DNA from: Halomonas denitrificans
GTDB taxonomy: Bacteria; Pseudomonadota; Gammaproteobacteria; Pseudomonadales; Halomonadaceae
Reading direction: 5' to 3'
Assembly (NCBI RefSeq): GCF_003056305.1
Contig: NZ_PYVX01000007.1
Span: 1-64,000, forward strand
Length of the DNA stretch: 64,000 nucleotides
The notes under the pieces are model-generated. The model was given only the letters and a program-made list of their open reading frames with translations, was not told the DNA's origin and made no database searches. Position 1 is the first letter of the stretch. The number at the start of each line of letters is the position of its first letter. The position numbers and the translations under genes were made by a program. This document shows positions 6,687-35,064 of this stretch, in pieces.

Positions 6687-6788
6687 CGGTTTGCCATGTC
6701 GTCGTCATACACCCCACCAGCATACCCCAAACAGACGCCGCCGCGGTTCCATCGGTCACCGGCTTGCCTCCACCGCAAGGCCTTGCTA

Positions 6789-6814: not shown

Positions 6815-6832
6815 TTTACAGCGAGCACTATC

Positions 6833-8122: not shown

Positions 8123-8168
8123 CCGCCACCACCACCCTCAACACAATGACAACATCGAGGAGGTCTCC

Positions 8169-9644: not shown

Positions 9645-9660
9645 ACGAGGAGACCTCGCC

Positions 9661-11070: not shown

Positions 11071-11097
11071 GCGCATTGTAGCGTCGTGCAAGTGACC

Positions 11098-17106: not shown

Positions 17107-17374
17107 CGCGCGCCCTCCTCACCGTGGTCGCCTACCTCGACTCTAGTCAGAGACTCGTCCGCGCAACAGCGTCGCGACCGTCGCCTCGACGACTCGCCCT
17201 TTGCTCGCGGCGGCGCGCCCCACCCGACGAGGCCCGCCGTTCGGCCTCGACATGTCGCTGCGACCAAGCCCGCCGGCGCCGACGGGCAAGTCCCTGGCCA
17301 GGCGGACACGAATACTGAGATTATGGACGTTGGACGCCCTCGACGTCCCGGCGGATGATCCAGGAGACGTGGCG

Positions 17375-19108
17375 ATGACGAGCCAACCGCACGACCTCGA
17401 CCGGGCGCAGGCCCGGATGCCCGACAACCTCACGATCGCCCGCGAGGCGCGGCTCTGGCCCATCGAGGAGATCGCCCACCGCCTCGGCGTGCCCGGCGAG
17501 GCGGTGGAGCCCTACGGGCGGGGCATCGCCAAGCTGGACCTCGCCGCCGCCGACGCCCTGGCCCAGCGCCCCCGGGCGCGCTACGTGGTGGTCTCGGCGA
17601 TCACCCCCACGCCGCTGGGCGAGGGCAAGACCACCACCGCCATCGGCCTCGTCCAGGGCCTCCAGCAGCTCGGCCACGCCGCCACCGTCACCCTGCGCCA
17701 GCCCTCCCTGGGGCCGACGCTCGGGATCAAGGGCGGCGCCGCCGGCGGGGGCTACAGCCAGGTGTTGCCCATGGAGCGCATCAACCTGCACCTGACCGGC
17801 GACATCCATGCGGTCTCCGCCGCCCACAACCTGCTGGCGGCGATGATCGACAACCACCTCTTCCATCGCCTGGGCCGCGACCTGGACCCGCAGACGATCA
17901 CCTGGCCGCGGGTGATGGACATCAACGACCGCGCGCTGCGCCATGTCGTCACGGGACTCGGCCCGCCCGCCGACGGCCTCCCCCGCCAGGGCGGCTTCGA
18001 GATCACCGCGGCCTCCGAGGTGATGGCGATCCTCGCCCTCGCGACCTCGCTTGCCGACCTGCGCCGCCGCCTGGGGCGCATCCGGATCGGCACCACCCAC
18101 GACGGCGAGCCGGTCACCGCCGAGGAGATCGGCGCGGCGGGGGCCATGGCCGTGCTGCTCAAGGAGGCGATCAAGCCCAACCTGCTGCAGACCCTCGAGC
18201 ACGCGCCGGCGCTGATCCATGCGGGCCCGTTCGGCAACATCGCCCACGGCAACTCCTCGATCGTCGCCGACCGCATCGGCCTGCACGGCGGCGACTACCT
18301 GGTCACCGAGGCGGGCTTCGGGGCCGACATGGGGGCGGAGCGCTTCTTCAACATCAAGTGCCGCGCCTCGGGGATGACGCCGGACGCGGCGGTGCTGGTG
18401 GTGACGGTGCGCGCCCTGAAGTTCCACTCCGGGCGCTACGCCGTGGCGCCCGGCCGGCCGCTGCCCGCGGCGATGCTGGCGGAGAGCCCCGAGGACGTGC
18501 GCGCGGGCGGCGCCAACCTGGTCAAGCAGATCGACAACCTGCGCGCCCACGGCGTCACCCCGGTGGTGGCGATCAACGCCTTCCCCGCCGACCATGCCAG
18601 CGAGCACGCCGCGATCCGCGACATCGCCGAGGCCGCCGGGGTGCGGGCCGCGGTCTCGACCCACGTGCGCGACGGCGGCCTCGGCGCGCTGGAGCTGGCC
18701 CAGGCCGTGGCCGAGGCCGCCGAACAGGGCAGCGACTTCCACCTGCTCTACCCCGACGAGCTGCCCCTGGACGCCAAGATCGAGCGCATCGCCACCCGCC
18801 TCTACGGCGCCGCCGACGTCGCCTTCAGTCCCGAGGCCCGGCGTCAGCTCGAGCGCTACCAGCAGCAGGGCCAGGGCCACCTGCCGGTGTGCATCGCCAA
18901 GACCCACCTCTCGCTGTCGTCGGACCCGACCCTGCGCGGCGCCCCCAGCGGCTGGACCCTGCCGGTGCGCGAGGTGCGCCTCTCCGCCGGGGCGGGCTTC
19001 GTCTACGCGCTGTGCGGCGACATCCGCACCATGCCGGGGCTCGGCCGCGACCCGGCCGCCGCGCACCTCGACATCGACGACCACGGCGAGATCACCGGGC
19101 TGTTCTGA
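17375..19108 (+). CDS. fhs: Formate--tetrahydrofolate ligase
   Basis: 577 residues from ATG 17375, preceded by CAGGAGA at 17361-17367. The ATP-binding loop TPLGEGKTTT is at 79-88, followed by RQPSLGPTLGIKGGAAGGGYSQV, DIHAVSAAHNLLAAMIDNH, FGNIAHGNSS, EAGFGADMGAE, and the C-terminal GDIRTMPGL. It makes 10-formyl-THF from formate, THF and ATP. Beside methyl-group oxidising genes it most likely returns formate derived from demethylation to the folate pool. It is divergent from the GbdR-like regulator across 268 bases in which I see no clear promoter. Confidence 0.93.
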   Translation: MTSQPHDLDRAQARMPDNLTIAREARLWPIEEIAHRLGVPGEAVEPYGRGIAKLDLAAADALAQRPRARYVVVSAITPTPLGEGKTTTAIGLVQGLQQLGHAATVTLRQPSLGPTLGIKGGAAGGGYSQVLPMERINLHLTGDIHAVSAAHNLLAAMIDNHLFHRLGRDLDPQTITWPRVMDINDRALRHVVTGLGPPADGLPRQGGFEITAASEVMAILALATSLADLRRRLGRIRIGTTHDGEPVTAEEIGAAGAMAVLLKEAIKPNLLQTLEHAPALIHAGPFGNIAHGNSSIVADRIGLHGGDYLVTEAGFGADMGAERFFNIKCRASGMTPDAAVLVVTVRALKFHSGRYAVAPGRPLPAAMLAESPEDVRAGGANLVKQIDNLRAHGVTPVVAINAFPADHASEHAAIRDIAEAAGVRAAVSTHVRDGGLGALELAQAVAEAAEQGSDFHLLYPDELPLDAKIERIATRLYGAADVAFSPEARRQLERYQQQGQGHLPVCIAKTHLSLSSDPTLRGAPSGWTLPVREVRLSAGAGFVYALCGDIRTMPGLGRDPAAAHLDIDDHGEITGLF

Positions 19109-19175
19109 GCGGGCATTCCGGGGCCTGCGTGGACATCACGGGGCCTGATCTGAGCGGGCGTTACAAGGCGAGCAG

Positions 19176-19199
19176 CGGGAGGCGGACGCCCGCCTCCCG
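19176..19199. terminator. Hairpin between fhs and the convergent alcohol dehydrogenase
   Basis: Perfect 10-bp stem CGGGAGGCGG / CCGCCTCCCG with an ACGC loop, just before the minus-strand stop at 19204. Just upstream the phrases TGAGCGGGC and CGGGGCCTG each occur twice (19107-19170). Confidence 0.55.
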
Positions 19200-19203
19200 T
19201 GGA

Positions 19204-20349
19204 TCACAGGCAGCGCTGGAACAGCGTCCGCAGGTCCTCGACGGTCAGCGGCACCGGGTTGCCGCCGCAGCTCGGGTCCCGGATGGCCATCTCGGCCAGC
19301 TCGTCGATGCGCTCGGGGGTAGCGCCGAGCTCGGAGAGGGTGCGCGGGATGCCCATGCGGTCGTTGAGCTCCTGCACGAAGGCCCGGAAACCGTCGAAAC
19401 CGCCCTCGATGCCGAGGTAGGCGGCCGCGCTGTCGAAGCGCTCGCGGATCGCCTCGGCGTTGAAGTCGAGCACCGCGGGCATGCAGATCGCGTTGGTGGT
19501 GCCGTGATGGGCGTTGAAGACTGCGCCGATGGGGTGGCTCATCGCATGGATGGCGCCGAGCCCCTTCTGGAAGGCGGTGGAGCCCATCATCGCCGCGCTC
19601 ATCATGTGCGCCCGGGCCTCGAGGTCGGTGCCGTCGGCGTAGGCGCGGGGCAGGTACTCCTTGACCAGCCGCATGCCCTCCAGGGCGATGCCCTGGCTCA
19701 TCGGATGGTAGTGCGGGCTCGAGAAGGCCTCCACGCAGTGGGCGAAGGCGTCGAGCCCGGTGCCGGCGGTGATCGCCCGGGGCATGCCCACCGTCAGCTC
19801 GGGGTCGCAGAGCACCACCCGGGGCAGCACCCTGGGGTGGAAGATGATCTTCTTCTCGTGGGTCTCGGCGTTGGTGATGACGCTGGCCCGCCCCACCTCC
19901 GAGCCGGTCCCTGCGGTGGTGGGCACCGCGACGATGGGAGCGATCGCCTCGGCATCGGCCCGGGTCCACCAGTCGCCGATGTCCTCGAAGTCCCATACCG
20001 GGCGCGTCTGGCCCGACATGAAGGCCACCATCTTGCCGAGATCCAGCCCCGAGCCGCCGCCGAAGGCGATGACTCCGTCGTGGCCGCCCGCCCGGAAGGC
20101 CGCAACGCCCGCCGCCAGGTTGCGCTCGTTGGGGTTGGGATCGACCTCGGCGAAGAGCGCGCGGCCCAGGCCCGCGGCCTCGAGGACGTCCAGCGCGGCG
20201 GCGGTGATCGGCAGGTCGGCAAGCCCGCGGTCGGTCACCAGCAGCGGCCGCGCCATGCCCGCCTCGGCGCAGGCGTCGGGCAGCTCCCTGAGGCGCCCCG
20301 CGCCGAAGCGGATGGCGGTGGGATAGGTCCAGTTGCCGGTCAGCGTCAT
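19204..20349 (-). CDS. Iron-containing alcohol dehydrogenase
   Basis: 381 residues, standard for the group III Fe-dependent alcohol dehydrogenase family. Visible: GGGSGLDLGK (NAD binding, 97-106), PTTAGTGSEVGR, TAGTGLDAFAHCVEAFSS and the metal histidines in HAMSHPIGAVFNAHHGTTNAI. Oxidises a primary alcohol to an aldehyde. It is the last gene of a leftward run GS-like ligase, aldehyde dehydrogenase, alcohol dehydrogenase, spaced by 30-35 nt, so I infer an alcohol-to-aldehyde-to-acid sequence on a glutamylated amino alcohol. Exact substrate unknown. Confidence 0.85.
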   Translation of the reverse strand: MTLTGNWTYPTAIRFGAGRLRELPDACAEAGMARPLLVTDRGLADLPITAAALDVLEAAGLGRALFAEVDPNPNERNLAAGVAAFRAGGHDGVIAFGGGSGLDLGKMVAFMSGQTRPVWDFEDIGDWWTRADAEAIAPIVAVPTTAGTGSEVGRASVITNAETHEKKIIFHPRVLPRVVLCDPELTVGMPRAITAGTGLDAFAHCVEAFSSPHYHPMSQGIALEGMRLVKEYLPRAYADGTDLEARAHMMSAAMMGSTAFQKGLGAIHAMSHPIGAVFNAHHGTTNAICMPAVLDFNAEAIRERFDSAAAYLGIEGGFDGFRAFVQELNDRMGIPRTLSELGATPERIDELAEMAIRDPSCGGNPVPLTVEDLRTLFQRCL

Positions 20350-20379
20350 GTCGTCACCCTCTTCAGCTGGTTGTTGTCT

Positions 20380-21765
20380 TCAATCTGTTGTCGTTTTCTT
20401 CAGGTAGTAGGACTTGGGCCGCGTGAGGTTGTGGTAGCCGATCACCGAGAGGCTGCCGCCGCGCCCCGTCTGCTTGCAGCCGGTCCAGCACAGGCCCGGG
20501 TCGAGGTAGTCGGCGCGGTTCATGAAGACGGTGCCGGTCTCGACCCGGTCGCCGACGCGCTGGGCGCGATCGAGATCGGCGGTCCAGAGGCTCGCCGTCA
20601 GGCCGAAGGGGCTGTCGTTCATCAGCCGGATCGCCTCCTCGTCGCCGCTCACCCGCATGATGCCGACCACCGGACCGAAGCTCTCGTCGCGCATCACGCG
20701 CATGTCGTGGGTCACCTCGGTGAGGATCTGCGGGGTCAGGTAGGCGCCCCCGTCGTCGGCGGGCTTGCGGGCGATATGGGCCCTCGCCCCGTCGGCCAGG
20801 GCCTCGTCGATCTGGGCGCGCACCTCCCGGGCGAAGCGGACGTTGGCCATCGGCCCGATGTCCGTGCCGGGGTCCAGCGGGTCGCCCAGGGTGTAGGCCT
20901 CGACCACCGCCACGGCCCACTCGACGAAGGCGTCGTAGAGGGACTCGTGGACGTAGATGCGCTCGATCCCGCAGCAGCACTGCCCGGAGTTGAACATCGC
21001 GGCGTCGACCAGGGTCGCGACGGCGGCCTCGAGGTCGGCATCCTCCATGACGTAGCCCGGGTCCTTGCCGCCGAGCTCCAGGCCGAGGCCGGTGAAGGTG
21101 CCGGCCGCCGCCCGTTCCATGGCGCGCCCGCCGCCCACCGAGCCGGTGAAGTTGACGAAGTCGAAGGCGCGCTCGGCGATCAGGGCGGAGGTGGTGTCGT
21201 GGTCGAGGAAGACGTTCTGGAACACCGCCTCGGGCACGCCGACGGAGTGGAAGGCCCGCGCCATGCGCTCGCCGACCAGCAGGGTCTGGGTGGCGTGCTT
21301 GAGCAGCACGCTGTTGCCGGCGATCAGCGCCGGGGCCACGCAGTTGATGGCCGTCATGTAGGGGTAGTTCCAGGGCGCCACCACCAGCACCACGCCGTGG
21401 GGCACGCGCTTGATGTAGCGCTTGACGGTGGCGTCCTCGCCCACCGCGATATCGGCCAGCGCCTCCTCGGCGATGGCCGCCATGTGGCCGCCGCGCTCCT
21501 CGACACCGCCGAACTCGCCGCCGTAGCGCACCGGGCGGCCCATCATCCGCGCCAGCTCCGGCACCACCTCGTCGTTCATCGCCCCGAGCGCGGCGATGCC
21601 GGCGCGCACCAGCTCGATGCGCTCCGCGAGGGGCCGGTCGGCCCAGTCATGCTGCGCCGCGCGGGCCCGGTCGGCGGCCTCTCGGGCGGCCTCGGTCGAG
21701 AGCGCGTCGCGCTCGGCAAACACCGACCCGTCGATCGGCGAGATACATCTCAGCGTATGACCCAT
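20380..21765 (-). CDS. NAD(P)-dependent aldehyde dehydrogenase
   Basis: 461 residues from ATG 21765 (CAGGAGAGG upstream). Family motifs: VVAPWNYPYM, FTGSVGGG, LELGGKDPG (general-base Glu) and NSGQCCCGIERIYV, in which the catalytic Cys lies in an unusual triple-Cys run. The C-terminus RGGSLSVIGYHNLTRPKSYYLKK is typical of succinate-semialdehyde-like members. It acts between the ligase at 21801 and the alcohol dehydrogenase at 19204 and probably oxidises the aldehyde made by the latter. Shorter N-terminus than the betaine aldehyde dehydrogenase at 56394, and not closely similar to it. Confidence 0.85.
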   Translation of the reverse strand: MGHTLRCISPIDGSVFAERDALSTEAAREAADRARAAQHDWADRPLAERIELVRAGIAALGAMNDEVVPELARMMGRPVRYGGEFGGVEERGGHMAAIAEEALADIAVGEDATVKRYIKRVPHGVVLVVAPWNYPYMTAINCVAPALIAGNSVLLKHATQTLLVGERMARAFHSVGVPEAVFQNVFLDHDTTSALIAERAFDFVNFTGSVGGGRAMERAAAGTFTGLGLELGGKDPGYVMEDADLEAAVATLVDAAMFNSGQCCCGIERIYVHESLYDAFVEWAVAVVEAYTLGDPLDPGTDIGPMANVRFAREVRAQIDEALADGARAHIARKPADDGGAYLTPQILTEVTHDMRVMRDESFGPVVGIMRVSGDEEAIRLMNDSPFGLTASLWTADLDRAQRVGDRVETGTVFMNRADYLDPGLCWTGCKQTGRGGSLSVIGYHNLTRPKSYYLKKTTTD

Positions 21766-21800
21766 GGTCCTCTCCTGTTGGTGCCCGCTCGCCGCCGGCG

Positions 21801-23180
21801 TCATGAGCGCTCGAAGCCGCGCGCCACCTCGTAGTCGGTGACCACGCGGGCGAAGTCCTCGAGCTCCACCTCGGCGGCCCGGGCGTAGTGGTCGATCACC
21901 GCGTCGCCCATGGCCTCGCGCAGCATGGTCGACCCGGCGAGGGCCTCCCGGGCATCGCGCAGGCTCTGCGGGATCAGCCCCGACTCCCCCTCGTAGGTAT
22001 CGCCCTCGGCGGGCGGCGGCAGCACCAGCCGCTCCTCGATGCCCTTGATGCCGGCGGCCAGCTGCCCGGCGATGGCCAGGTAGGGGTTCAGGTCCGAGCC
22101 GCCGATGCGGCACTCGATGCGCACCGCCTGGGTACCCTCGGCGCAGAGGCGAAAGCCCGCGGTGCGGTTGTCCACCGACCAGACCGTTCGCGTGGGCGCG
22201 AAGGAGCCCTTCTGGAAGCGCTTGTAGCTGTTGACGTAGGGGGCGAGGAAGTAGGTGAAGTCGGGCGCGTACTTCAGAAGCCCGGCCAGGTAGTGCTGCA
22301 TCAGCGGCGACATGCCCCGCGCCTCGCTGTCGTCGAAGAAGGCGGGGACGCCCTGCTGCCACAGCGACTGATGGATGTGGGTGGAGCTGCCGGAGTGGTC
22401 GTGGTGCCACTTCGGCATGAAGGTCACCGCCCGCCCCTGCTGCCAGGCGATCTCCTTGGTCGCGTGCTTGGCGATGGTGTGGTAGTCCGCGGTGTCCAGC
22501 GCCCCGGCGTAGCGGATGTTGAGCTCCTCCTGCCCCGACCCCGCCTCCCCCTTGGTGCCCTCCACGGGGATCCCCGCCGCATGCAGGTGATTGCGCAGCG
22601 GGCGCAGCACGTGCTCCTCCTTGGTGGTCTGGAAGAGGTGGTAGTCCTCGTTGTAGCCGCTGATCGGCTGCAGGTCGCGAAACCCCTCCTTGCGGAGCTC
22701 GTCGAGGGGCTTCTCGAACAGGAAGAACTCCAGCTCGGTGGCCATGATCGCCTCGAAGCCCAGTCGCTCGAGGCGCACCAGCTGGCGCTTCAAGATGGCC
22801 CGCGGCGCATGGGCCACCGGCTCATGGGTGTGATGGTCCAACACGTCGCAGAGCGTCATGACCGTGCCCTCGAGCCAGGGCACGGGCCGCAGCGTGGCCA
22901 GGTCCGGCTTCATGATGTAGTCGCCGTAGCCCGCCCGCCAGGAGGTGCTGGCGTAGCCGTCGGGCGTTTCCATCTCGAGGTCGGTGGCCAGCAGGTAGTT
23001 GCAGCAGTGCGTCTCCTCCCAGCCATGCTCCACGAAGTGACGGGCGTGGAGCCGCTTGCCCATCAGCCGTCCCTGCATGTCGACGATGCACACCAGCACC
23101 GTGTCCACTTCACCGCTGTCCACCTGAGCCCTCAGGGCCTCGAGAGCCGCGAGGGCCTCCCTCGTCAGCGCGTTGGTCAT
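21801..23180 (-). CDS. Glutamine synthetase-like gamma-glutamylamide ligase
   Basis: 459 residues, the length of type I GS-like ligases rather than of housekeeping GlnA. Motifs: IVDMQGRLMGKR, MATELEFFLFE, GQEELNIRY, HHDHSGSSTHIHQS, APYVNSYKRFQKGSFAPT, SVDNRTAGFR and RIGGSDLNPYLA. It lacks the GlnA adenylylation loop as far as can be read. Such enzymes ligate glutamate to amines (putrescine, ethanolamine, isopropylamine). It heads the set with the aldehyde and alcohol dehydrogenases and follows a TRAP transporter, so the amine probably carries a hydroxyl group, for instance ethanolamine. That is inference. GAGGAAG precedes the start. Confidence 0.82.
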   Translation of the reverse strand: MTNALTREALAALEALRAQVDSGEVDTVLVCIVDMQGRLMGKRLHARHFVEHGWEETHCCNYLLATDLEMETPDGYASTSWRAGYGDYIMKPDLATLRPVPWLEGTVMTLCDVLDHHTHEPVAHAPRAILKRQLVRLERLGFEAIMATELEFFLFEKPLDELRKEGFRDLQPISGYNEDYHLFQTTKEEHVLRPLRNHLHAAGIPVEGTKGEAGSGQEELNIRYAGALDTADYHTIAKHATKEIAWQQGRAVTFMPKWHHDHSGSSTHIHQSLWQQGVPAFFDDSEARGMSPLMQHYLAGLLKYAPDFTYFLAPYVNSYKRFQKGSFAPTRTVWSVDNRTAGFRLCAEGTQAVRIECRIGGSDLNPYLAIAGQLAAGIKGIEERLVLPPPAEGDTYEGESGLIPQSLRDAREALAGSTMLREAMGDAVIDHYARAAEVELEDFARVVTDYEVARGFERS

Positions 23181-23269
23181 ATCTCGGCTTCCTCACTCGG
23201 TCGCAATGACGGGGCATGGGGCCCCTACTCCGGCGCCGTGCCCCGGCGGGTGCCGGGGCACGGGGCGAC

Positions 23270-24322
23270 TCAGGCCTCGCCGTAGCGGTAGGGGCGGCCG
23301 GCCTTGCGCATGTCGGCGTTGTACTGCTTGAAGATCTCGACCACCCGCGCCTTGGTCTCGGACTGGGCGGCGATCTCGTCCCAGAACACCTGGGCGGCCT
23401 CCTCCACCCGGTCCCACTCGGCATCGGGGATGGTGGTCAGCTCGAGCTTCTCGCCGTGCACGCGCAGCCGCGCCTCGCCGCCCCAGTACCAGTGCTGGCG
23501 GTAGTAGTGGGACTGCTCGCAGCACACCTCGAAGAGCAGTTTGAGATCCTCCGGGAGCTCGTTCCAGCGCTCCATGTTGACGAAGAAGTGGCCGATCCAG
23601 GCGCCCGAGATGTTGTTGGTGAGGAAGTAGTTGGTGACGTCGGCCCAGCCCACCGTGTAGTCCTCGGTGATGCCCGACCAGGCGATGCCGTCGAGCTCGC
23701 CGGTCTGCACGGCCACCTCGATGTCCTCCCAGGGCAGGGTCACCGGCACCACGCCGAACTGCGACAGGAAGCGCCCCGCGGTGGGGAAGGTGAAGATGCG
23801 CTTGCCCTCCAGGTCCTGGAGGCTTCGGATCGGCTCCTTGGTGACGAAGTGGCAGGGATCCCAGGCCCCGGCGCTGACGTGCTTGACCCCGACCCTGGCG
23901 TACTCCTCCTCCCAGATCTCCTTGAGCCCGTACTGGTGAAAGAGCACCGGCACGTCGAGGCTGTAGCGCGAGCCGAAGGGGAAGTAGCCGCCGAAGACGG
24001 TGACCTCGGTGGGCGAGGCCATGGAGTCGTCGTCGGACTGAACGGCATCGATGGTGCCGCGCTGCATCGCCCGGAAGAGCTCGCCGGTGGGCACCAGCTG
24101 ATCGGCATAGTAGAGCTCGATCTGCATGCGGTCCCCGGCGATGCGGTTGAACAGGTCGATGGCCGGCTTGGCGACGTGTTCGGCCAGGGCCGCGCCGGCG
24201 TAGGTCTGCATGCGCCACTTGATGGTGGGCTCGGACGACGACTGGGCCATGACCCGGGAGGCCAGCGGCGCGATGGCGGCACCGGCCGCGGCGTTGATCA
24301 GAAACTTGCGTCTTGTTGTCAT
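23270..24322 (-). CDS. dctP: TRAP transporter substrate-binding protein (DctP type, Tat signal)
   Basis: 350 residues. The N-terminus TTRRKFLINAAAGAAIAPLASRVMA is a twin-arginine signal (Tat export), quoted here in full context as residues 2-26. The DctP fold is seen in YYADQLVPTGELFRAMQRG, FPFGSRYSLDVP and LPWEDIEVAVQTGELDGI. In most DctP proteins the substrate carboxylate is held by an Arg in a DLKG-KIR motif; here the segment is DLEGKRIF, with Phe177 at that position. It sits just downstream of dctM with a 120-base gap. Ligand unknown; the altered motif hints at something other than a simple carboxylate. Confidence 0.85.
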   Translation of the reverse strand: MTTRRKFLINAAAGAAIAPLASRVMAQSSSEPTIKWRMQTYAGAALAEHVAKPAIDLFNRIAGDRMQIELYYADQLVPTGELFRAMQRGTIDAVQSDDDSMASPTEVTVFGGYFPFGSRYSLDVPVLFHQYGLKEIWEEEYARVGVKHVSAGAWDPCHFVTKEPIRSLQDLEGKRIFTFPTAGRFLSQFGVVPVTLPWEDIEVAVQTGELDGIAWSGITEDYTVGWADVTNYFLTNNISGAWIGHFFVNMERWNELPEDLKLLFEVCCEQSHYYRQHWYWGGEARLRVHGEKLELTTIPDAEWDRVEEAAQVFWDEIAAQSETKARVVEIFKQYNADMRKAGRPYRYGEA

Positions 24323-24442
24323 TGTGTCGCTCTCCTGGTGGTGATACCGGATGGTGCGTGGTGGCGGCCCCTGGCGAGGCTCTCGTTGTTGTGGCTGGCG
24401 TCGGTGTCGGCGGCCGTCGACGGCCCGGCCCCCTTCCCCATA

Positions 24443-25765
24443 TCAGTGCCCATAAATGTAGCCCGGAAGCCAGAGCGCGATCTGCGGAAAGAGCATCACC
24501 AGGCTCAGGGCGAGGGTCATCACCAGCACGAAGGGCAGGATCGACCGGTAGATGTCGCGCAGCCCAATCTGGGGCGGCGCCATGGCGCGCATCAGGAAGA
24601 GGTTGTAACCGAACGGCGGCGTCATGTAGGCGATCTGGGTGGTGATGGTGTAGAGCACGCCGTACCAGATCAGGTCGAAGCCCAGCGCCTCGACCAGCGG
24701 CACGTAGAGCGGCGCCACGATCACCAGCATGGCGGTGTCGTCGAGGAAGGTGCCCATGACGATGAAGCTGAGCTGCATCAGGATCAGGATCATCCAGGGC
24801 GAGAGCCCCAGGCGCTCGGTGAACAGGTCCTCGATCGCCTTGACCGCGCCCAGGCCGTCGAAGATGGCGCCGAAGGCGAGCGCCGCCAGGATGATCCACA
24901 TGAACATGCAGGAGATGGCCAGGGTCTGGCGCACCGAGACCTCGAACACCCGGCGCGTCATGCGCCCCTTGAGGGTGGCGGCCAGCAGCGCGGTGGTCGC
25001 GCCGACGGCCGAGCTCTCGACCAGCGAGGTCCAGCCCTTGACGAAGGGGACCATCATCACCGCGAAGATCATCAGCGGCAGCAGCCCCGCCCGCAGCAGG
25101 CGCAGCTTCTCGGCCCAGGAGACGTCGCGCTCCTCGACGGGCAGCACGGGCCCCAGGGAGGGCTGCAGGCGACAGCGCACGTAGATGTAGATGATGAAGA
25201 GCGTCGCCATCATCAGCCCCGGCAGCACGCCGGCCAGCCACAGCTGCCCCACCGGCTGGCGGGCGATCATGGCGTAGAGCACCAGCACCACCGAGGGCGG
25301 CACCAGGATCCCGAGGCTCGACCCCGCCTGGATGACGCCGGTGACCATGATCTTGTCGTAGCCGCGACGCAGCAGCTCGGGCAGGGCGATGGTGGCGCCG
25401 ATCGCCATGCCGGCCACCGACAGCCCGTTCATCGCCGAGATCAGCACCATCAGCCCGATCGTGCCGATGGCCAAGCCCCCTCGCACCGGCCCCATCCAGA
25501 CGTGGAACATCCGGTAGAGGTCGTCAGCGATGCGGCTCTCCGAGAGCACGTAGCCCATGAAGATGAACATCGGCAGGGTCAGCAGCGGGTACCACTTCAT
25601 CAGCTTCATCGCCGAGGAGAAGGGGATGTCGACCCCGCCGGTGCCCCACAGCAGCACCCCCGCCAGGGCGCCGACGAAGCCGATCGCGCCGAACACGCGC
25701 TGACCGGTGAACAGCATCAGCATCATCGAGCCGAACATCACGATGGCGATCATCTCGTAAGGCAT
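24443..25765 (-). CDS. dctM: TRAP transporter large permease (DctM type)
   Basis: 440 residues from ATG 25765, which overlaps the DctQ stop as ATGA; longer upstream readings are out of context. About 12 hydrophobic segments; DctM-family phrases include PLLTLPMFIFMGYVLSES, SAMNGLSVAGMAIGA, QAGSSLGILVPPSVVLVLY, MGTFLDDTAMLVIVAPLYVP and MTPPFGYNLFLM. It forms the Na+- or H+-coupled channel of a tripartite importer with DctQ and DctP. Confidence 0.9.
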   Translation of the reverse strand: MPYEMIAIVMFGSMMLMLFTGQRVFGAIGFVGALAGVLLWGTGGVDIPFSSAMKLMKWYPLLTLPMFIFMGYVLSESRIADDLYRMFHVWMGPVRGGLAIGTIGLMVLISAMNGLSVAGMAIGATIALPELLRRGYDKIMVTGVIQAGSSLGILVPPSVVLVLYAMIARQPVGQLWLAGVLPGLMMATLFIIYIYVRCRLQPSLGPVLPVEERDVSWAEKLRLLRAGLLPLMIFAVMMVPFVKGWTSLVESSAVGATTALLAATLKGRMTRRVFEVSVRQTLAISCMFMWIILAALAFGAIFDGLGAVKAIEDLFTERLGLSPWMILILMQLSFIVMGTFLDDTAMLVIVAPLYVPLVEALGFDLIWYGVLYTITTQIAYMTPPFGYNLFLMRAMAPPQIGLRDIYRSILPFVLVMTLALSLVMLFPQIALWLPGYIYGH

Positions 25766-26361
25766 CAGTCGATCACCCCGCGCAGGCGGCCGATATCCCG
25801 GAAGAACTCGGCGAGGGCTTGAAGGATCATCAGGAAGACCCCGAGGCAGAGGATGGTCTTGATCGGCCACAGCCAGGGCCGCCAGGCCGTCGGGCTGCGC
25901 TCCAGGAAGCCCAGCGCCTCCCCCGCCGCCGACGGCCCCTGGGTGAAGAAGGTGCCGACGAGGTCGAGGAAGAATCGGAAGGGTTCATCCCCGAAGTAGC
26001 CGAGGGAATAGGCCGTGGACACCAGCCCGCCGTAGAGCAGCACGCCGAGGTAGAAGATCAAGAAGCAGACCGTGATGGCGTCGACCCAGGCCTTGGTCCG
26101 CGGGCTCCAGTCGCCGTAGAAGAGGTCCATGCGCACGTTGGAGCCCAGCTGGATCGAGTAGGGCCCGCCCAGCACGAAGTAGGCCACCATGACGAACTGC
26201 GCGGTCTCCAGGGTCCACATCGAGGGGGTCAGGAACGCCTTGGAGGCCGAGGACCAGAGCAGCACGCCGATCAGCACGAAGATCAGGTACATCGCCATGC
26301 GGCCGATGGCGCGGTTCATGGCGTCGATGGCAGTGATGTAGCCGAGGATGAGCTTAGGCAT
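25765..26361 (-). CDS. dctQ: TRAP transporter small permease (DctQ type)
   Basis: 198 residues from ATG 26361, which overlaps the TAA of the upstream hydrolase gene and has GGGGAGG nine bases before it; an ATG at 26370 has no proper spacing. Four hydrophobic segments around a DctQ core (LETAQFVMVAYFVLGGPYSIQLGSNVRMDLFY). Between segments three and four is a longer loop than usual (about 45 residues, EPFRFFLDLVGTFF to SPTAWRPWLWP). Same operon as dctM and the hydrolase. Confidence 0.85.
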   Translation of the reverse strand: MPKLILGYITAIDAMNRAIGRMAMYLIFVLIGVLLWSSASKAFLTPSMWTLETAQFVMVAYFVLGGPYSIQLGSNVRMDLFYGDWSPRTKAWVDAITVCFLIFYLGVLLYGGLVSTAYSLGYFGDEPFRFFLDLVGTFFTQGPSAAGEALGFLERSPTAWRPWLWPIKTILCLGVFLMILQALAEFFRDIGRLRGVID

Positions 26362-27151
26362 CGGACACATCCTCCCCGAGGCGGAACTCGGTGCCGAGGC
26401 TCGCCAGCGCCGGCGCGATCAGCCGATAGAGCTCCCCGGCGAGAGCCCGCTGCGCCTCGGCGGTGGCCAGCAGGTCGTTGCGCACCTCGATCATCACGTT
26501 GGCCAGGCCCTGGCCGATGCCGTGCAGCTTGAGGGAGTGGGTGACGCCGTCCTCGGGCCCGTAGGGATCGTTGCGACGAATGCACCGCCGGGGCAGACGG
26601 TGGGCCTCGGCCAGCATCGCATCGGCCAGGCGCCGATCGGCATCGTGGAGGATGCCGATCTCGACCTCGCGGCGCTCTCCGTGAAAGCTCGGCGTGAAGC
26701 TGTGGATGGTGATCAGCACGCTTGGGAGGGCGCGCGCCCGGCGCTCGGCCAGCACCTCCGTCACGGCCGCGCAGAACGGGCGGTAGACCGCCTCGACCCG
26801 GGCTTCGCGCTGCGCCGCGTCGAGGCCGCGATTGCCCGGCACGTCGATCACCTCGACCCGCGCCGGCATGGCGCTTTCCGCTTCGGGGGGCCGGTTGCAG
26901 TCGTAGACCAGCCGCGAGATGCGACTCGCGATCAGGGGGGCATCGAGCCGCTCGGAAAGCGACAGGGCCACCCCCCGGGCACCGGGGTCCCAGGCGGCGT
27001 GGCTGCGCCGGTGCGCCGGGTCGAGGCCGAGCCCCCGATAGCGGGCGGGAATGTGGTGCGAGGCGTGCTCGCACAGGATGACCACGGGGCCGTGACCGTG
27101 CCGGTGACGGATCTCGACGCTTGGGGACGACGCATCGCTTGCGCTTGACAT
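26354..27151 (-). CDS. N-formylglutamate amidohydrolase family protein
   Basis: 265 residues. Family motifs are clear: VVILCEHASHHIP near residue 23, HAAWDPGARGVA, SRLVYDCNRP, TIHSFTP and IGILHDADRR, with the His/Glu/Asp metal-binding pattern. N-formylglutamate amidohydrolases hydrolyse N-acyl-glutamates to glutamate. There is no histidine-utilisation gene nearby; instead it is coupled to a TRAP transporter and lies near a gamma-glutamylamide ligase. I infer it may release glutamate from the end product of that pathway. It is divergent from the RpiR regulator and its own start has GGAGGAG upstream. Confidence 0.8.
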   Translation of the reverse strand: MSSASDASSPSVEIRHRHGHGPVVILCEHASHHIPARYRGLGLDPAHRRSHAAWDPGARGVALSLSERLDAPLIASRISRLVYDCNRPPEAESAMPARVEVIDVPGNRGLDAAQREARVEAVYRPFCAAVTEVLAERRARALPSVLITIHSFTPSFHGERREVEIGILHDADRRLADAMLAEAHRLPRRCIRRNDPYGPEDGVTHSLKLHGIGQGLANVMIEVRNDLLATAEAQRALAGELYRLIAPALASLGTEFRLGEDVSDA

Positions 27152-27299
27152 CTGGGCTCCTCCACGCTCCTGTAAAGATATAGACGCGTGAAAGTCAGTG
27201 TGTCAATATTTCTTCAGAGCCCGTGTCAACGCTGCTTCGCCACGCGCCGCGGCGCCTGGGAACGGCGACCACGCGGGGCATACCGGGAAGGAAAACGCC

Positions 27300-28178
27300 G
27301 TGACGACCCTCGACTCCGGCGCCACCGTGCGCGCCCTGATCCGCCAGCACTACCCGGACCTGACGCCGTCGGAGCGCAAGTTCGCCGACGCCCTGCTCGA
27401 CAACTATCCCGCGGCGGGGCTGGCCTCGATCACCATCGTGGCGAGCAACGCCGGGGTCTCCTCCCCCACCGTGGCCCGCATGGTCAAGAAGCTGGGGTTC
27501 AAGGGCTATCCGGAGTTTCACAAGGCGCTGCTGGGCGAGCTGGAAGCGAAGGGTGTCGGGCCCACCCAGCGGCGCGACAACTGGTCCGCCGAGGCGCCGG
27601 AGACCCACCTGCTGAACCGCTTCACCCAGGCGGTCACCACCAACCTGCAGCTGACCTTCTCGCACATCGAGACGGCGCGCTTCGATGGGGCGGCCCGCCA
27701 GCTGGCCGAGGCCGAGCGGCGCCTCTACATCGTCGGCGGACGCATCACCCAGGCGCTGGGCGACTATGCCTTCACACACTTTCAGGCGGTGCGCCCCGGG
27801 GTCACCCAGCTGACCTCCTCCTCGGGCACCTGGCCGCACTACGTGCTCGACATGCAGCCGGGGGACACCCTGCTGATCTTCGACATACGGCGCTACGAGA
27901 CCAACCTGCTGCGCCTGGCGGAGATGGTGAAGCAGCGCGGCGTGGCCATCGTGCTGTTCACCGACCAGTGGGGCTCGCCGATCTCGTCGCTGGCCGACTT
28001 CACCTTCCACTGCTGGGTCGAGATTCCCTCGGGCTGGGACTCCAACGTCTCGATCATGATGCTGCTGGAGACCATGATCGCCGCCGTTCAGGAGCAGCGC
28101 TGGCCCGAGGCGCGGGAGCGCTACGAGCGCCTGGATGAACTGTTCGACATGACCCACTTCTTCCGCAAGTTCAGCTGA
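27300..28178 (+). CDS. RpiR-family transcriptional regulator
   Basis: 292 residues from GTG 27300, which has GGAAGGA at 27287-27293; the upstream GTG at 27198 would add a basic, low-complexity tail. N-terminal helix-turn-helix (LTPSERKFADALLDNYPA, SITIVASNAGVSSPTVARMVKKLGF) and a C-terminal SIS domain (LYIVGGRITQALGDYAF, GDTLLIFDIRRYE). SIS regulators bind sugar phosphates or amino compounds. It is divergent from the hydrolase/TRAP operon and likely controls it. The 148-base gap contains AT-rich sequence but no unmistakable operator. Confidence 0.85.
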   Translation: MTTLDSGATVRALIRQHYPDLTPSERKFADALLDNYPAAGLASITIVASNAGVSSPTVARMVKKLGFKGYPEFHKALLGELEAKGVGPTQRRDNWSAEAPETHLLNRFTQAVTTNLQLTFSHIETARFDGAARQLAEAERRLYIVGGRITQALGDYAFTHFQAVRPGVTQLTSSSGTWPHYVLDMQPGDTLLIFDIRRYETNLLRLAEMVKQRGVAIVLFTDQWGSPISSLADFTFHCWVEIPSGWDSNVSIMMLLETMIAAVQEQRWPEARERYERLDELFDMTHFFRKFS

Positions 28179-28217: not shown

Positions 28218-29510
28218 TCAGACCCCCAGGCGGTCGCGCACCTGGTAGTACCAGGCGCCGACGGCAGAGAGCGGCACCCGCAGCATCCGCCCGCCGGGGA
28301 ACGGCAGGTGCGGCAGGCCGGCGAAGGCGTCGAAGCGCGCCTCGCGACCGGTCATCGCCTCGGCGATCAGGCGCCCGGCCAGGTGGGTGCAGGTCACGCC
28401 GTGGCCGGAGTAGCCCTGGGCGTAGTAGACGTTGTCGTTGAGCACCCCGAACTGCGGCAGCCGGTTGAGCGTCATCAGGAAGGTGCCGCTCCAGGCGTAG
28501 TCGACCCGCACGTCCGCGAGGCCCGGGAAGGTCTTCTCCATCTTGGGCCGGATCACCGCCTCGATGTCGGCCGGGTCCTGGCCGCCGTAGTTGACGCCGC
28601 CGCCGTAGATCAGGCGGTTATCGGCGGTCAGCCGGAAGTAGTCGAGCAGGTAGTTGCAGTCCTCCACCGCCAGGTTGTTGGGCAGCAGTGCCCGGGCCCG
28701 GTCCTCGCCCAGCGGCTCGGTGGTGATGATCTGGGTGCCGCAGGGCATCGACTTGCCCTCCAGCGCCGGCATGATGCCCTGGTGGTAGGCGTTGCCGGCC
28801 ATCACCACCCGCTCGGCCCGCACGCATCCTTGAGGCGTGGAGAGACGCACCGGCTGGCCGTGCTCGACGGCCGTCACCGGGGTGTGCTCGTAGATCACGC
28901 CGCCCAGGGACTCCACCGCGGCGGCCTGGCCCAGCACCAGGTTGAGCGGATGCAGGTGGCCGCCGGAGTGGTCGACCAGCGCGCCCACGTAGCGATCGGA
29001 GGTCACCTCGCGCTTGACCGCCTCCCCCTCCAGCAGCTCGAGCTCACGGTGGCCGTAGCGCTCCCAGAGCGCCTTGTGATCGCGAAGCCCCTTGAACTGC
29101 TTCTGGTTGCAGGCGGCGAAGAGGTTGCCGTCGCGCAGGTCGCAGTCGATGCCGTAGCGGGCGATGCGCTCGCGAATGATGCGATTGCCCTCGAAGGCCA
29201 TGTCGCCCAGCGCCCGGGCGGTCTCGTCGCCGTACTTCGCCTCGATCACGTCCATGTCGCGGCTGTAGCTGTTGACGATCTGGCCGCCGTTGCGCCCGGA
29301 GGCGCCGAAGCCGACTCTCGCCGCCTCCAGCACCACCACCCGGTGGCCCTGCTCGGCGAGGTGCAGGGCCGCGGAGATGCCGGTGAAGCCGGCGCCCACC
29401 ACGCACACGTCGCACGCGATCTCGCCCTCGAGGGACGGGCGCGCCGGGGCGGGGTTGGCCGAGGCGGCGTACCAGGATGCCACGTGCTCGGTAGCGGGTG
29501 AGTCGCTCAT
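28218..29510 (-). CDS. puuB: Gamma-glutamylputrescine oxidase-like flavoprotein
   Basis: 430 residues from ATG 29510, which has GGAGG seven bases upstream. FAD fold VVGAGFTGISAALHLAEQG near residue 37, GFGASGRNGGQIVNSYSRD, LHPLNLVLGQA, DYFRLTADNRLIYGGGVNYGG and YYAQGYSGHGVTCTHLAG, all typical of E. coli PuuB. Expected reaction: oxidation of gamma-glutamylputrescine to the aldehyde with release of ammonia and peroxide. It lies directly downstream of the polyamine ABC operon but behind a terminator, so it is likely transcribed on its own. Two more PuuB-like genes in the window make the exact substrate uncertain. Confidence 0.85.
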   Translation of the reverse strand: MSDSPATEHVASWYAASANPAPARPSLEGEIACDVCVVGAGFTGISAALHLAEQGHRVVVLEAARVGFGASGRNGGQIVNSYSRDMDVIEAKYGDETARALGDMAFEGNRIIRERIARYGIDCDLRDGNLFAACNQKQFKGLRDHKALWERYGHRELELLEGEAVKREVTSDRYVGALVDHSGGHLHPLNLVLGQAAAVESLGGVIYEHTPVTAVEHGQPVRLSTPQGCVRAERVVMAGNAYHQGIMPALEGKSMPCGTQIITTEPLGEDRARALLPNNLAVEDCNYLLDYFRLTADNRLIYGGGVNYGGQDPADIEAVIRPKMEKTFPGLADVRVDYAWSGTFLMTLNRLPQFGVLNDNVYYAQGYSGHGVTCTHLAGRLIAEAMTGREARFDAFAGLPHLPFPGGRMLRVPLSAVGAWYYQVRDRLGV

Positions 29511-29582
29511 GAAAGCCTCCAGAGTGGATATTTTATTCAACCATTTTCCCCATGATACGAGGGCTTTCACCGGAAAGGCAAC

Positions 29583-29592
29583 TACCATGGTA
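29583..29592. promoter_or_regulatory. Short palindrome upstream of the PuuB-like gene
   Basis: TACCATGGTA at 29583-29592 is a perfect palindrome, 73 bases upstream of the start; TGATAC at 29553-29558 and GTATCA at 29590-29595 also form an inverted pair. The surrounding sequence is unusually AT-rich. A regulator site is plausible but unproven. Confidence 0.35.
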
Positions 29593-29604
29593 TCAAATAA
29601 TCAA

Positions 29605-29636
29605 CACACAAAAACGCCGGGGGAAGCCCCCGGCGT
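29605..29636 (-). terminator. Rho-independent terminator of the polyamine transport operon
   Basis: Perfect 10-bp stem ACGCCGGGGG / CCCCCGGCGT with AAG loop (29614-29636), followed on the minus strand by TTTTTGTGTG. Located 23 bases after the stop of the gene at 29660. Confidence 0.88.
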
Positions 29637-29659
29637 GCTCGGCAACGGCCCCGCGGGCC

Positions 29660-30736
29660 TCAGCGACTGCGCGCCTCGCTCCACAGCTCCTGGAGCAGCT
29701 GCAGCTCCTCGCCGCTCACCGAGGGCGTGAAGCGCAGGCGCGCCCGGTCGGCCTCGTCGGGCATCACCGGCGGCTGGCGCAACGCCGCGTCCACCATCGG
29801 CAGCGCGGCCGCGTTGGGCGTGGTGTAGAAGTTGTAGTTGGCGAGCTGCGCGGCCACCTCGGGGCGCAGCAGGTACTCGATGAAGGCCCGGGCGGCCTCG
29901 GGGTTGGGCGCACGGGCGGGGATCGCCAGCACGTCGACCCAGCGCTGGGAGCCCTCCTCGGGGATGAAGAAGCCCAGCGAGCCGTAGGTCGCGGGGTCCT
30001 CGGCGCGCTTGGCGGCAAGGTCGCCGTTGTAGGCGATGCCGGCCCGGATCACGCCGCTGGCGACCTGCTCGATGGCCGCCGTGGCGCCGACGAAGCCCAC
30101 GAAGTTGTCACGCTCGCGGGTCTCGATGACCAGCCTCGCCGCCTCCACCCAGGGCGCCTGGCCCACGCAGTCGAACCCGGCGCCCTGGAAGGCGCAGGCG
30201 GTGCCGAAGGTGAACTGGGCATCGCCTTGGAGCAGCGCGAAGGGGTAGTCGGCGTTGACCGTCGGGTCATAGAGCAGGCCCCAGCTGGGGTCGGGGTCCG
30301 GCCAGGTCTCGGTGTCGTAGACGATGCCGGTCGCGCCCCACAGGTAGGGCACGGTGTAGTCGCCGCCGGGATCGAAGCTCGGCGCGCGAAACTCCTCGAG
30401 GATATGGTCGTGGCCGGCCAGGGTCTCGCCGGGTGGGGTCAGCGGCTGGATCAGGCCGGCCTCGATCAGGCGCGGGACGAAGTAGTCGGAGGGCACGATC
30501 AGGTCGTACTGGGCGTCGCCTCCCGCGGTCAGCTTGGCGAAGAGCTCGGCGTTGGCATTGTAGTAGTTCTGCACCACCTCGAGCCCCGTCTCCGCCTCGA
30601 AGGCCTCGATGATCGCGGGGTCCATGTAGCTGGACCAGTTGAACAGCCTGAGCTTGCCCTCGTCGGCCGCCGCGGCGGCACTCACTGTCAGCAGGCCCAG
30701 GCCGGCAAGCGCCACGGCGTATCTGGGTATCGGCAT
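29660..30736 (-). CDS. Polyamine ABC transporter substrate-binding protein, second copy (PotD/PotF family)
   Basis: 358 residues from ATG 30736, which has GGGAG at correct spacing (GTG at 30742 does not). Signal peptide 1-24 (AVALAGLGLLTVSAAAAA). Polyamine-binding family patterns: LRLFNWSSYMDPAIIEAFEAETG, DLIVPSDYFVPRLIEAGLI, YLWGATGIVYDTE and NYNFYTTPNAAA. It is 73 bases downstream of the ligase gene in an operon that already has another binding protein (32234-33298), with which it shares the same layout but limited identity. Probably widens the range of polyamines taken up. Confidence 0.88.
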   Translation of the reverse strand: MPIPRYAVALAGLGLLTVSAAAAADEGKLRLFNWSSYMDPAIIEAFEAETGLEVVQNYYNANAELFAKLTAGGDAQYDLIVPSDYFVPRLIEAGLIQPLTPPGETLAGHDHILEEFRAPSFDPGGDYTVPYLWGATGIVYDTETWPDPDPSWGLLYDPTVNADYPFALLQGDAQFTFGTACAFQGAGFDCVGQAPWVEAARLVIETRERDNFVGFVGATAAIEQVASGVIRAGIAYNGDLAAKRAEDPATYGSLGFFIPEEGSQRWVDVLAIPARAPNPEAARAFIEYLLRPEVAAQLANYNFYTTPNAAALPMVDAALRQPPVMPDEADRARLRFTPSVSGEELQLLQELWSEARSR

Positions 30737-30809
30737 CGTCACTCTCCCTGATGATCTTCCCGGCGCGCCGGGCGGCGCGCCCTCTCGGCCCCGGCCGGGC
30801 CGCCCTTGC

Positions 30810-32177
30810 CTAGACGCGCAGCAGCAGGTGCTCGCGCTCCCAGGAGCTGATGACCTGGAAGTAGGCGCGGTGCTCGGCGCGCTTGACCGCCAGGTAGCTG
30901 TTGACGAAGCGCTCGCCGAGGATGTCGGCCAGCGGCTTGCAGTCGTGGAGCAGGTCCAGCGCCGGGCCGATGTCGTCGGGCAGCTTGTTGCCGCCGGACC
31001 AGGCGGAGCCGACCATCGGCGGGCGCGGCTCGAGCCGGCCCAGCATGCCGAGGTAACCGCAGGCCAGCGAGGCCGCCATCACCAGGTAGGGATTGGCGTC
31101 GGCCCCGGCCAGGCGGTTCTCCACCCGGGTCGCCTCGGGGGAGGAGACCGGCACGCGCAGCCCCACGGTGCGGTTGTCCATGCCCCACTCGACGTTGATC
31201 GGCGCCGAGCCACTGGTCTCGGTGCGCATCAGCCGGCGGTAGGAGTTGACGTTGGGCGCCAGCAGCGGCATCACCGAGGGCAGGTAGCGCTGCTGCCCGC
31301 CGATGAAGGCGTGGAAGAGGCGGCTGGGCTGGCCCTCCTCGTCGGCGAAGACGTTGTGCCCCTCCTTGCTGTCGAGCAGGCTCTGGTGGATATGCATGGA
31401 GCTTCCGGGCTCTCCCGCCATGGGCTTGGCCATGAAGGTAGCGTACATGCCGTGACGCAGCGCCGTCTCGCGCAGGGTGCGCTTGAACATCACCACCTGG
31501 TCGGCCAGGGCGAGCGGATCGCCGTGCTGGAAGTTGACCTCCATCTGGCCGGCGCCCTCCTCGTGGATCAGGGTATCCAGGTCCAGGTTCATGGCGTCGC
31601 AGTAGTCGTACATCTCCTCGAAGAGCGGATCGAACTCGTTGACCGCGTCGATGGAGAACGACTGGCGGCTGCTCTCCTGGCGTCCGGTGCGGCCGATCGG
31701 CGGCTCCAGGGGATAGTCGGAGTCGGTGTTGGTCTTGACCAGGTAGAACTCGACCTCCGGGGCCACCACCGGCGTCCAGCCGCGGGCGGCGTAGAGGTCC
31801 AGCACGCGCTTGAGCACGTAGCGCGGCGCCAGCTCCACCGGCTCGCCGGTCAGGTAGAAGCAGTCGTGGATGATCTGCGCGGTGGGGTCCTCGGCCCAGG
31901 GCACCGGGTAGATGGCACTCGGGTCGGGCACCAGCTCCATATCGCGCTCGGCGGGGTTCCAGAAGCGGATGTCCTCGTCGTCGGGATAGCCGCCGGTGAC
32001 CGTCTGGATGAAGATCGAGTCGGGCAGCCGTGGGCGGCCGCCCTTGAGGTACTTGGCGGCGGGCATGATCTTGCCCTTCAGGATGCCCGTCAGGTCGGAG
32101 ACCAGGCACTCGACCTCGGTGATGCCGTGGTTCTGGAACCAGTCGTTGAGGAGCGGCTGCTCCTGTCGGTTACTCAT
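30810..32177 (-). CDS. Gamma-glutamylpolyamine synthetase-like (glutamine synthetase family)
   Basis: 455 residues from ATG 32177, preceded by AAGGAAG. Motifs: LVSDLTGILKGKIMP, VVAPEVEFYLV, GQMEVNFQHG, YATFMAKPMAGEPGSSMHIHQS, APNVNSYRRLM, WGMDNRTVGLR and RLAGADANPYLVMA. It resembles PuuA and the Pseudomonas SpuI group, which glutamylate putrescine or spermidine. It sits between two polyamine-binding protein genes in a polyamine ABC operon, so it most likely acts on an imported polyamine. It differs clearly from the puuA at 2712 and the ligase at 21801, making it the third family member in the window. Confidence 0.85.
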   Translation of the reverse strand: MSNRQEQPLLNDWFQNHGITEVECLVSDLTGILKGKIMPAAKYLKGGRPRLPDSIFIQTVTGGYPDDEDIRFWNPAERDMELVPDPSAIYPVPWAEDPTAQIIHDCFYLTGEPVELAPRYVLKRVLDLYAARGWTPVVAPEVEFYLVKTNTDSDYPLEPPIGRTGRQESSRQSFSIDAVNEFDPLFEEMYDYCDAMNLDLDTLIHEEGAGQMEVNFQHGDPLALADQVVMFKRTLRETALRHGMYATFMAKPMAGEPGSSMHIHQSLLDSKEGHNVFADEEGQPSRLFHAFIGGQQRYLPSVMPLLAPNVNSYRRLMRTETSGSAPINVEWGMDNRTVGLRVPVSSPEATRVENRLAGADANPYLVMAASLACGYLGMLGRLEPRPPMVGSAWSGGNKLPDDIGPALDLLHDCKPLADILGERFVNSYLAVKRAEHRAYFQVISSWEREHLLLRV

Positions 32178-32233
32178 GGGATCTTCCTTGCTCGGGATGG
32201 CGAGCCCCCGGCCCGTTGCCGGGGGCCCTTCGC

Positions 32234-33298
32234 TCAGCGCGACTGGACCTCGGACCACAGCTGCTGGAAGGTCTGCAGGGCCTCACCCTCGAGGCTCGGG
32301 GTGAAGCGCAGTCGCTCCATGTCGGCCTCGCTCGGCTGGACGGGGGGCTTGGTCAGCACCTCGTCGAGGTAGGGCGTGGCGGCGGCATTGGGGCTGGCGT
32401 AGTAGTTGTAGTTGGAGAGCTGGGCGCCGATCTCGGCCTCGAGGATGAAGTCGATGAACTTGTGCGCCATGTCCGGATTGGGCGCCTCAGAGGGGATCAG
32501 CATCGAGTCGACCCACATCTCGGCGCCCTCGTCGGGAATCATGAAGTCGAGGGTGGCGAAGGAGTCGGGGTCCTCCTCCTTGAAGAACAGGTAGTCGCCG
32601 TTGTAGGAGAGCCCCACGTGGGTCACGCCGCGGGCCAGCTGCTGCAGCGCGGGGGTGCCGTCGGTGAAGCCGCTGAAGGTCTCGCGGCCCTTGGTCTCGA
32701 TGAGCAGCCGGGCGGCCTCCTTCCAGGCGTTCATGTCGGTGCAGTCGTAGCCATGGCCCAGGTAGGCGCAGGCGCCGCCCATGCTGACCTGGCCGTCGCC
32801 CATCAGCGCGAAGGGGTGGTCGGGATTCACCTCGGGGTCGAACATCAGCGACCAGCTCTTGGGCGCCTCGGGGAAGGTCTCGGTGTTGTAGACGATCCCG
32901 GTGGTGCCCCACTGGTAGGGGGCCGTGTACTCGGCGCCGGGGTCGAAGGCCGGGTCCTGGAACTGCTCCATGACGTTGTCGAGATTCTCAAGCTTCGACT
33001 TGTCGAGCTTCTGCACCAGGCCGGTCTGGATCAACCGCGGCACGTAGTAGTTGGAGGGCACGATGATGTCGTACTGGGAGACCCCGCCGGCGTTGAGCTT
33101 GGCGAACATCTCGGGCAGCGAGTTGAAGTAGTTCTGCACCACCTCGACATCGTAGCGCGCCTCGAAGGCCTCGATGATCTCGGGGTCCATGTACTCGGTC
33201 CAGTTGAACAGGTAGAGCTTGTTCTCCTGGGCCTGGGCGCTGCCGGCGAGCAGCAGGCCGCCCAGGGTCAGCGCCAGGATCTTCTTGTTGTTGGTCAT
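32234..33298 (-). CDS. Polyamine ABC transporter substrate-binding protein (PotD/PotF family)
   Basis: 354 residues with signal peptide 1-23 (KKILALTLGGLLLAGSAQAQ region). Binding-protein patterns: LYLFNWTEYMDPEIIEAFEARYD, DIIVPSNYYVPRLIQTGL, YQWGTTGIVYNTE, GLSYNGDYLFF and NYNYYASPNAAATPYLDEVL. Aromatic and acidic residues that line the polyamine site in PotD/PotF (Trp in FNW and YQWG, Asp in DIIVPS) are present. It follows potC by 38 bases and precedes the ligase by 56. Confidence 0.9.
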   Translation of the reverse strand: MTNNKKILALTLGGLLLAGSAQAQENKLYLFNWTEYMDPEIIEAFEARYDVEVVQNYFNSLPEMFAKLNAGGVSQYDIIVPSNYYVPRLIQTGLVQKLDKSKLENLDNVMEQFQDPAFDPGAEYTAPYQWGTTGIVYNTETFPEAPKSWSLMFDPEVNPDHPFALMGDGQVSMGGACAYLGHGYDCTDMNAWKEAARLLIETKGRETFSGFTDGTPALQQLARGVTHVGLSYNGDYLFFKEEDPDSFATLDFMIPDEGAEMWVDSMLIPSEAPNPDMAHKFIDFILEAEIGAQLSNYNYYASPNAAATPYLDEVLTKPPVQPSEADMERLRFTPSLEGEALQTFQQLWSEVQSR

Positions 33299-33336
33299 GT
33301 CGACTCTCCTCGTTTCCCGCGGGAAGGTGTGCCGGC

Positions 33337-35054: not shown

Positions 35055-35064
35055 GCTCGTCTCC

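Follow-up and report, generated by a model that had tools for sequence, protein, structure and literature searches.

An eight-gene locus and its conservation

The 64,000-nt window considered here (the whole stretch of DNA analysed, from contig NZ_PYVX01000007.1 of the Halomonas denitrificans assembly GCF_003056305.1) contains eight genes at positions 19204-28178, all of them intact open reading frames. Seven form a leftward run, which begins with a hydrolase of the N-formylglutamate amidohydrolase (FGase) family and continues with the small (DctQ) and large (DctM) permeases and the substrate-binding protein of a TRAP transporter, a glutamine synthetase (GS)-like ligase, an aldehyde dehydrogenase (ALDH) and an iron-containing alcohol dehydrogenase (Fe-ADH); the eighth, encoding an RpiR-family regulator, is divergent from this run. 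Within the run, neighbouring genes overlap slightly or lie no more than 120 bases apart, with the DctM and DctQ genes meeting at 25765 and the DctQ and FGase genes sharing 26354-26370. An earlier sequence-only reading had named the same gene set and orientation, which the intact frames and Pfam matches bear out (Table 1). Two frames look over-long as listed, namely those of the ALDH (to 22410) and of the RpiR regulator (opening at 27198). Comparison with relatives of 461 and 460 aa (loci L047 and L045) suggests that the ALDH most likely starts at the ATG at 21765, giving 461 aa, and inspection of the sequence points to a GTG at about 27300 as the likely start of the regulator.

This arrangement is not peculiar to H. 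denitrificans. We scanned named genomes with an alignment of the binding protein (A1) and kept the best 80 of at least 536 relatives, so that the counts favour close relatives; a gene was scored as present by its best tblastn match (E 1e-8) that lay no more than 7 kb from the binding protein. All eight genes were found in the same order and orientation, with the Fe-ADH gene last and the RpiR gene divergent, at 60 of the 80 named loci, which include representatives of Halomonas, Chromohalobacter, Roseovarius, Phaeobacter, Stappia and Roseibium. The other 20 comprise five with TRAP genes only and 15 that lack one or more genes, some of them on short contigs. That the set is kept together as a unit in both Halomonas and Rhodobacterales, a point which the sequence-only reading had put forward as a check, is thus observed, and a gene order shared by so many loci indicates that the arrangement is not due to chance. 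The operon is real, widespread and well conserved.

A sample of 151 genomes of the host family, in which up to 13 first-look candidates were scored per genome, yielded 35 genomes, that of the window among them, with one match each to the binding protein at an E value no higher than 1e-60. Among the 34 loci surrounding these matches outside the window's own genome, nine have the full eight-gene operon. The arrangement of the window, termed version A, combines RpiR, FGase and a ligase to which that of 11 of the 34 loci is 77-87% identical. Loci L044 and L045 have the transporter, ligase, ALDH and ADH, with no FGase or RpiR match.

Assignment to ethanolamine gamma-glutamylation

The pathway to which these genes point is already known. 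In Phaeobacter sp. MED193, ethanolamine genes MED193_10021 to 10056 are, by rising locus tag, RpiR, GGAH (gamma-glutamylglycine amidohydrolase), EtoV, EtoW, EtoX, ETAGA (ethanolamine gamma-glutamylase), GAADDH (gamma-glutamylacetaldehydeamide dehydrogenase) and GETADH (gamma-glutamylethanolamide dehydrogenase) (PMC10132767, 2023). The locus in the window, taken leftward from 28178 to 19204, has these eight functions in this order, the difference being the host, here a salt-loving halomonad. EtoX binds ethanolamine with a Kd of 7.9 uM, and the hydrolase, EtoX, the ligase and both dehydrogenases were raised on phosphorylethanolamine in a proteomic analysis; the same study ties the genes to a pathway already known in Chromohalobacter salexigens and in Agrobacterium (A. 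tumefaciens), and credits its demonstration to a 2015 paper (PMC10132767). For C. salexigens, works of 2015 and 2016 are cited by PMC6529630, and the same steps, with glycine and glutamate as products, are given for C. salexigens and Streptomyces in PMC6529630 and PMC9397018. We are highly confident that the locus is the operon for ethanolamine gamma-glutamylation described in C. salexigens and Phaeobacter. The route proposed in the sequence-only reading (import, glutamylation, oxidation of the alcohol to aldehyde and acid, then hydrolysis, with no amine oxidase) agrees with all three accounts; its description of the pathway as undescribed does not hold, since the pathway was in print in the works of 2015 and 2016 cited by PMC6529630 and again in PMC10132767. 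Among the matches listed (for the ALDH, the best 25 of 44), no NCBIfam equivalog cut-off is reached by the ADH, ALDH, ligase, hydrolase or regulator; that the curated models give generic names only may explain why the gene set looks undescribed.

The binding protein is identical to PDB chain 4uab (whose chain sequence is also that of 4xf5) at 301 of 324 aligned residues, with a score of 715 bits compared to 81 bits for the next solved relative. The carboxylate-binding Arg of TRAP binding proteins (equivalent to SiaP Arg-147) is lost and Phe177 stands in its place; in the alignment with 4yzz, a further TRAP binding protein, this residue faces an Arg, and all 35 rows of the family alignment have Phe here. 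We take 4uab to be Csal_0678 with ethanolamine, and by identity to this chain the binding protein is assigned to the ethanolamine clade. The Arg in question selects carboxylates, and where it is missing Phe is its commonest replacement; Csal_0678 lacks it and binds ethanolamine (PMC4646407). A carboxylate as substrate of the importer was rejected because this Arg is absent.

The ligase has 5dm3 as its best solved match (905 bits versus 547 for the next), which we take to be the ligase neighbouring Csal_0678, the match table giving no organism. It lies far below the curated cut-offs of GlnA (240.6 versus 429.15 bits) and of gamma-glutamylputrescine synthetase of the PuuA type (191.9 versus 650 bits), is also under the type III GS cut-off of NCBIfam, and is 27.8% identical to the best GlnA candidate of the same genome. 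For the hydrolase, 2odf (Atu2144) was the only solved relative found.

With these assignments, the EtoX-type protein would capture ethanolamine and the TRAP permeases would bring it in; the GS-like ligase would couple it to glutamate at the expense of ATP; the Fe-ADH and then the ALDH would convert the glutamylated alcohol via the aldehyde to gamma-glutamylglycine; and the FGase-family hydrolase would free glycine and glutamate. The substrate is most likely ethanolamine and the products most likely glycine and glutamate, so that the amino alcohol of the sequence-only reading fits and can be narrowed to this compound. The activity of each enzyme in H. denitrificans is inferred. The divergent RpiR regulator would probably control the operon through the inverted repeat described below. 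In the H. denitrificans genome (99.98% complete, 13 contigs) no match to EutB, the large subunit of ethanolamine ammonia-lyase, was found, E. coli being the only positive among 14 controls in this search; the cobalamin-dependent eut route thus appears to be unavailable.

Table 1. Features of the H. denitrificans locus, with window positions; type names follow the Phaeobacter operon
Feature	Position	Strand	Basis
Fe-ADH, GETADH-type, predicted gamma-glutamylethanolamide dehydrogenase	19204..20349	-	Pfam Fe-ADH, E 2.1e-47; place as MED193_10056
ALDH, GAADDH-type	20380..21765	-	Pfam Aldedh, E 5.5e-115; place as MED193_10051
GS-like ligase, ETAGA-type, predicted ethanolamine gamma-glutamylase	21801..23180	-	Pfam Gln-synt_C, E 3.4e-94; 5dm3 best solved relative
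TRAP substrate-binding protein, EtoX-type (ethanolamine)	23270..24322	-	Pfam DctP, E 8.2e-19; identity to 4uab/4xf5; Phe177
TRAP large permease, EtoW-type	24443..25765	-	Pfam DctM, E 8.8e-67
TRAP small permease, EtoV-type	25765..26370	-	Pfam DctQ, E 7.9e-15
FGase-family hydrolase, GGAH-type, predicted gamma-glutamylglycine amidohydrolase	26354..27151	-	Pfam FGase (PF05013), E 8.7e-43
Inverted repeat, candidate RpiR operator	27171..27216 (arms 27171-27186, 27201-27216)	.	conservation in halomonads
RpiR-family regulator	27300..28178	+	Pfam HTH_6, E 5.4e-17; SIS, E 7.5e-19; RpiR in published operon

Several observations weigh against this assignment. The PDB match table gives neither the organism nor the ligand of 4uab. 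EtoX was also elevated without phosphate (fold 2.14; PMC10132767), which means that its level is not purely an ethanolamine signal, and in the portions of the literature covered here no in vitro activity is stated for the ligase, dehydrogenases or hydrolase of Chromohalobacter or Phaeobacter. Five of the 80 named loci (L091, L092, L093, L107 and L123) have ethanolamine-type TRAP genes with no enzyme match within 7 kb, where the importer may serve another route, and at 23 of the 34 family loci a different ligase and hydrolase stand beside a related importer.

The chemistry could be the same with another small amino alcohol as the true substrate, such as L-alaninol (yielding alanine) or 3-aminopropanol (yielding beta-alanine), and ethanolamine as a secondary one. 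We take 4xf5 to hold 2-amino-1-propanol. The Phaeobacter binding tests listed in the portions of PMC10132767 covered include phosphorylated analogues and phosphocholine, other amino alcohols not being among them; the affinity of EtoX for ethanolamine and the response of five proteins of the homologous operon to phosphorylethanolamine, however, speak for ethanolamine itself, and we regard a different amino alcohol as improbable. Even less credence can be given to a ligase that acts on a diamine or on ammonium, as in the Puu pathway or in nitrogen assimilation, with neighbours that are adjacent by accident. Such a role would be in keeping with the polyamine-type uptake cluster, including its own GS-like ligase, that adjoins the operon (28218-36192), and loss of the ammonium-site Asp of GlnA could not be shown for the ligase, as an Asp is also found at this position when the two proteins are aligned. 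Against it, the ligase falls far short of the cut-offs for putrescine ligase and GlnA and keeps company with the same TRAP transporter and dehydrogenases in halomonads and Alphaproteobacteria; on the grounds of family cut-off and conserved context, both a plain glutamine synthetase role and a Puu-like diamine role were ruled out.

A candidate operator and a sister operon

The region that separates the FGase gene from the RpiR gene holds an inverted repeat whose arms are 16 bases long and start 30 bases apart. In a comparison that covered loci up to L096, all 23 halomonad rows (the window and 22 loci; 16 of the rows distinct) have the left arm exactly, the right arm with at most two mismatches, and constant spacing. 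Among eight alphaproteobacterial rows the right arm is present with at most two mismatches in four (L085, L086, L090 and L096); the left arm fits none of them (at least four mismatches). With up to one mismatch allowed, the arm pattern has three matches in the genome, two of which are these arms, and with up to two mismatches it has two matches in the window compared to 0.07 expected. Because the pattern was derived from these very arms, its presence alone proves nothing; the evidence consists in its conservation and its rarity elsewhere. Judged from the sequence, the repeat is a candidate RpiR operator that would overlap the promoter region of the operon. A sigma-70 scan of 26900-27500 gave no promoter at the thresholds used; by eye, a TTGACA can be seen on the minus strand in the right arm, followed 18 bases on, in the left arm, by a weak second hexamer, TATATC. 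A terminator-like site called within the repeat at 27183-27204 (0.2 expected in the scan of 26900-27500) is tentatively discounted because it falls in a divergent promoter region. Past the last gene, positions 19000-19300 gave no terminator-like site.

The different enzymes beside the related importer belong to a second arrangement, version B, which occurs at 23 of the 34 halomonad loci (L046-L068) and is best seen in L047 at about 2443-11633 on the minus strand. Its binding protein is 65-74% identical to that of the window, the ALDH 50-54% and the ADH 51-55%, compared to 32-36% for the ligase, and none of the 23 loci has an RpiR or FGase match. All 23 match a LysR protein, a ligase and a class-I glutamine amidotransferase of L047, the proteins on which alone the searches for these family assignments were made; in L068 the amidotransferase is truncated where the retrieved sequence ends. 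The LysR match lies ahead of the transporter in 19 loci and between the binding protein and the ligase in L054, L066, L067 and L068. Its gene content suggests that version B may be a second, parallel route for ethanolamine in which the ligase, hydrolase and regulator have been swapped. We lean towards the view that the pathway is modular: the ethanolamine TRAP importer and the two dehydrogenase families would stay the same, and a coupled set of ligase, gamma-glutamyl hydrolase and regulator might be exchanged around them. Should version B likewise break down ethanolamine, the final step of a single pathway would be carried out by two hydrolases that are unrelated. A limited literature search, mostly of titles and abstracts, found no description of version B or of the inverted repeat, although the pairing in version B may have a precedent, since a glutamine amidotransferase is named in the legend of a Streptomyces cluster (PMC6529630).

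Neighbouring genes and comparison with known systems

The polyamine-type cluster that adjoins the operon encodes an FAD oxidase (28218-29588), two PotD/PotF-like binding proteins and PotB-, PotC- and PotA-like proteins, with its GS-like ligase at 30810-32258; among the matches listed, the proteins of this cluster are under the curated cut-offs. A further GS-like ligase at 2673-4088 has gamma-glutamylputrescine synthetase as its best match, well below the cut-off, and is accompanied by FAD oxidase-like genes at 6833-8122 and 9586-11070. On the other side, a formate-tetrahydrofolate ligase gene (17201-19108) is convergent with the operon. It was detected within 7 kb at four of the 80 named loci (L069, L070, L071 and L075, all titled Halomonas) and at two of the 34 family loci (L035 and L037), and is possibly tied to the use of glycine.

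Phosphatidylethanolamine, one of the major lipids of membranes, is a source of ethanolamine. The gene for the ethanolamine importer is reported from about 5 to 10% of ocean bacteria (PMC10132767). The window adds a clear halomonad example of the operon, from a genome in which no cobalamin route was detected. Recognising the operon as known keeps it from being counted as a discovery; modest additions that can be tested are the candidate operator and the sister operon.

The Puu putrescine pathway of E. coli likewise proceeds by gamma-glutamylation, oxidation and hydrolysis. It uses the oxidoreductase PuuB (table in PMC9397018), a gene with no equivalent inside the operon of the window. The GlnA4 cluster of Streptomyces coelicolor shares the proposed chemistry, in which gamma-glutamylethanolamide is converted to glycine and glutamate (PMC6529630); its steps past the first are predictions in PMC6529630 and PMC9397018. 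The legend in PMC6529630 lists a short-chain dehydrogenase, a glutamine amidotransferase (orf5) and a putative transporter whose type is unstated there, whereas the text assigns the last step to SCO1615, a member of the formylglutamate amidohydrolase family; the sources thus disagree on the hydrolase. A Phaeobacter locus other than that of MED193 (L100) has all eight genes, with identities to the window of 82% for the binding protein, 66% for the ligase, 73% for the ALDH and 75% for the ADH. Similarly, for the C. salexigens pathway (Csal_0678 region), four other Chromohalobacter loci (L073, L074, L076 and L078) have the eight genes in order, and in these loci, which are not from C. salexigens itself, no difference from the window was seen.

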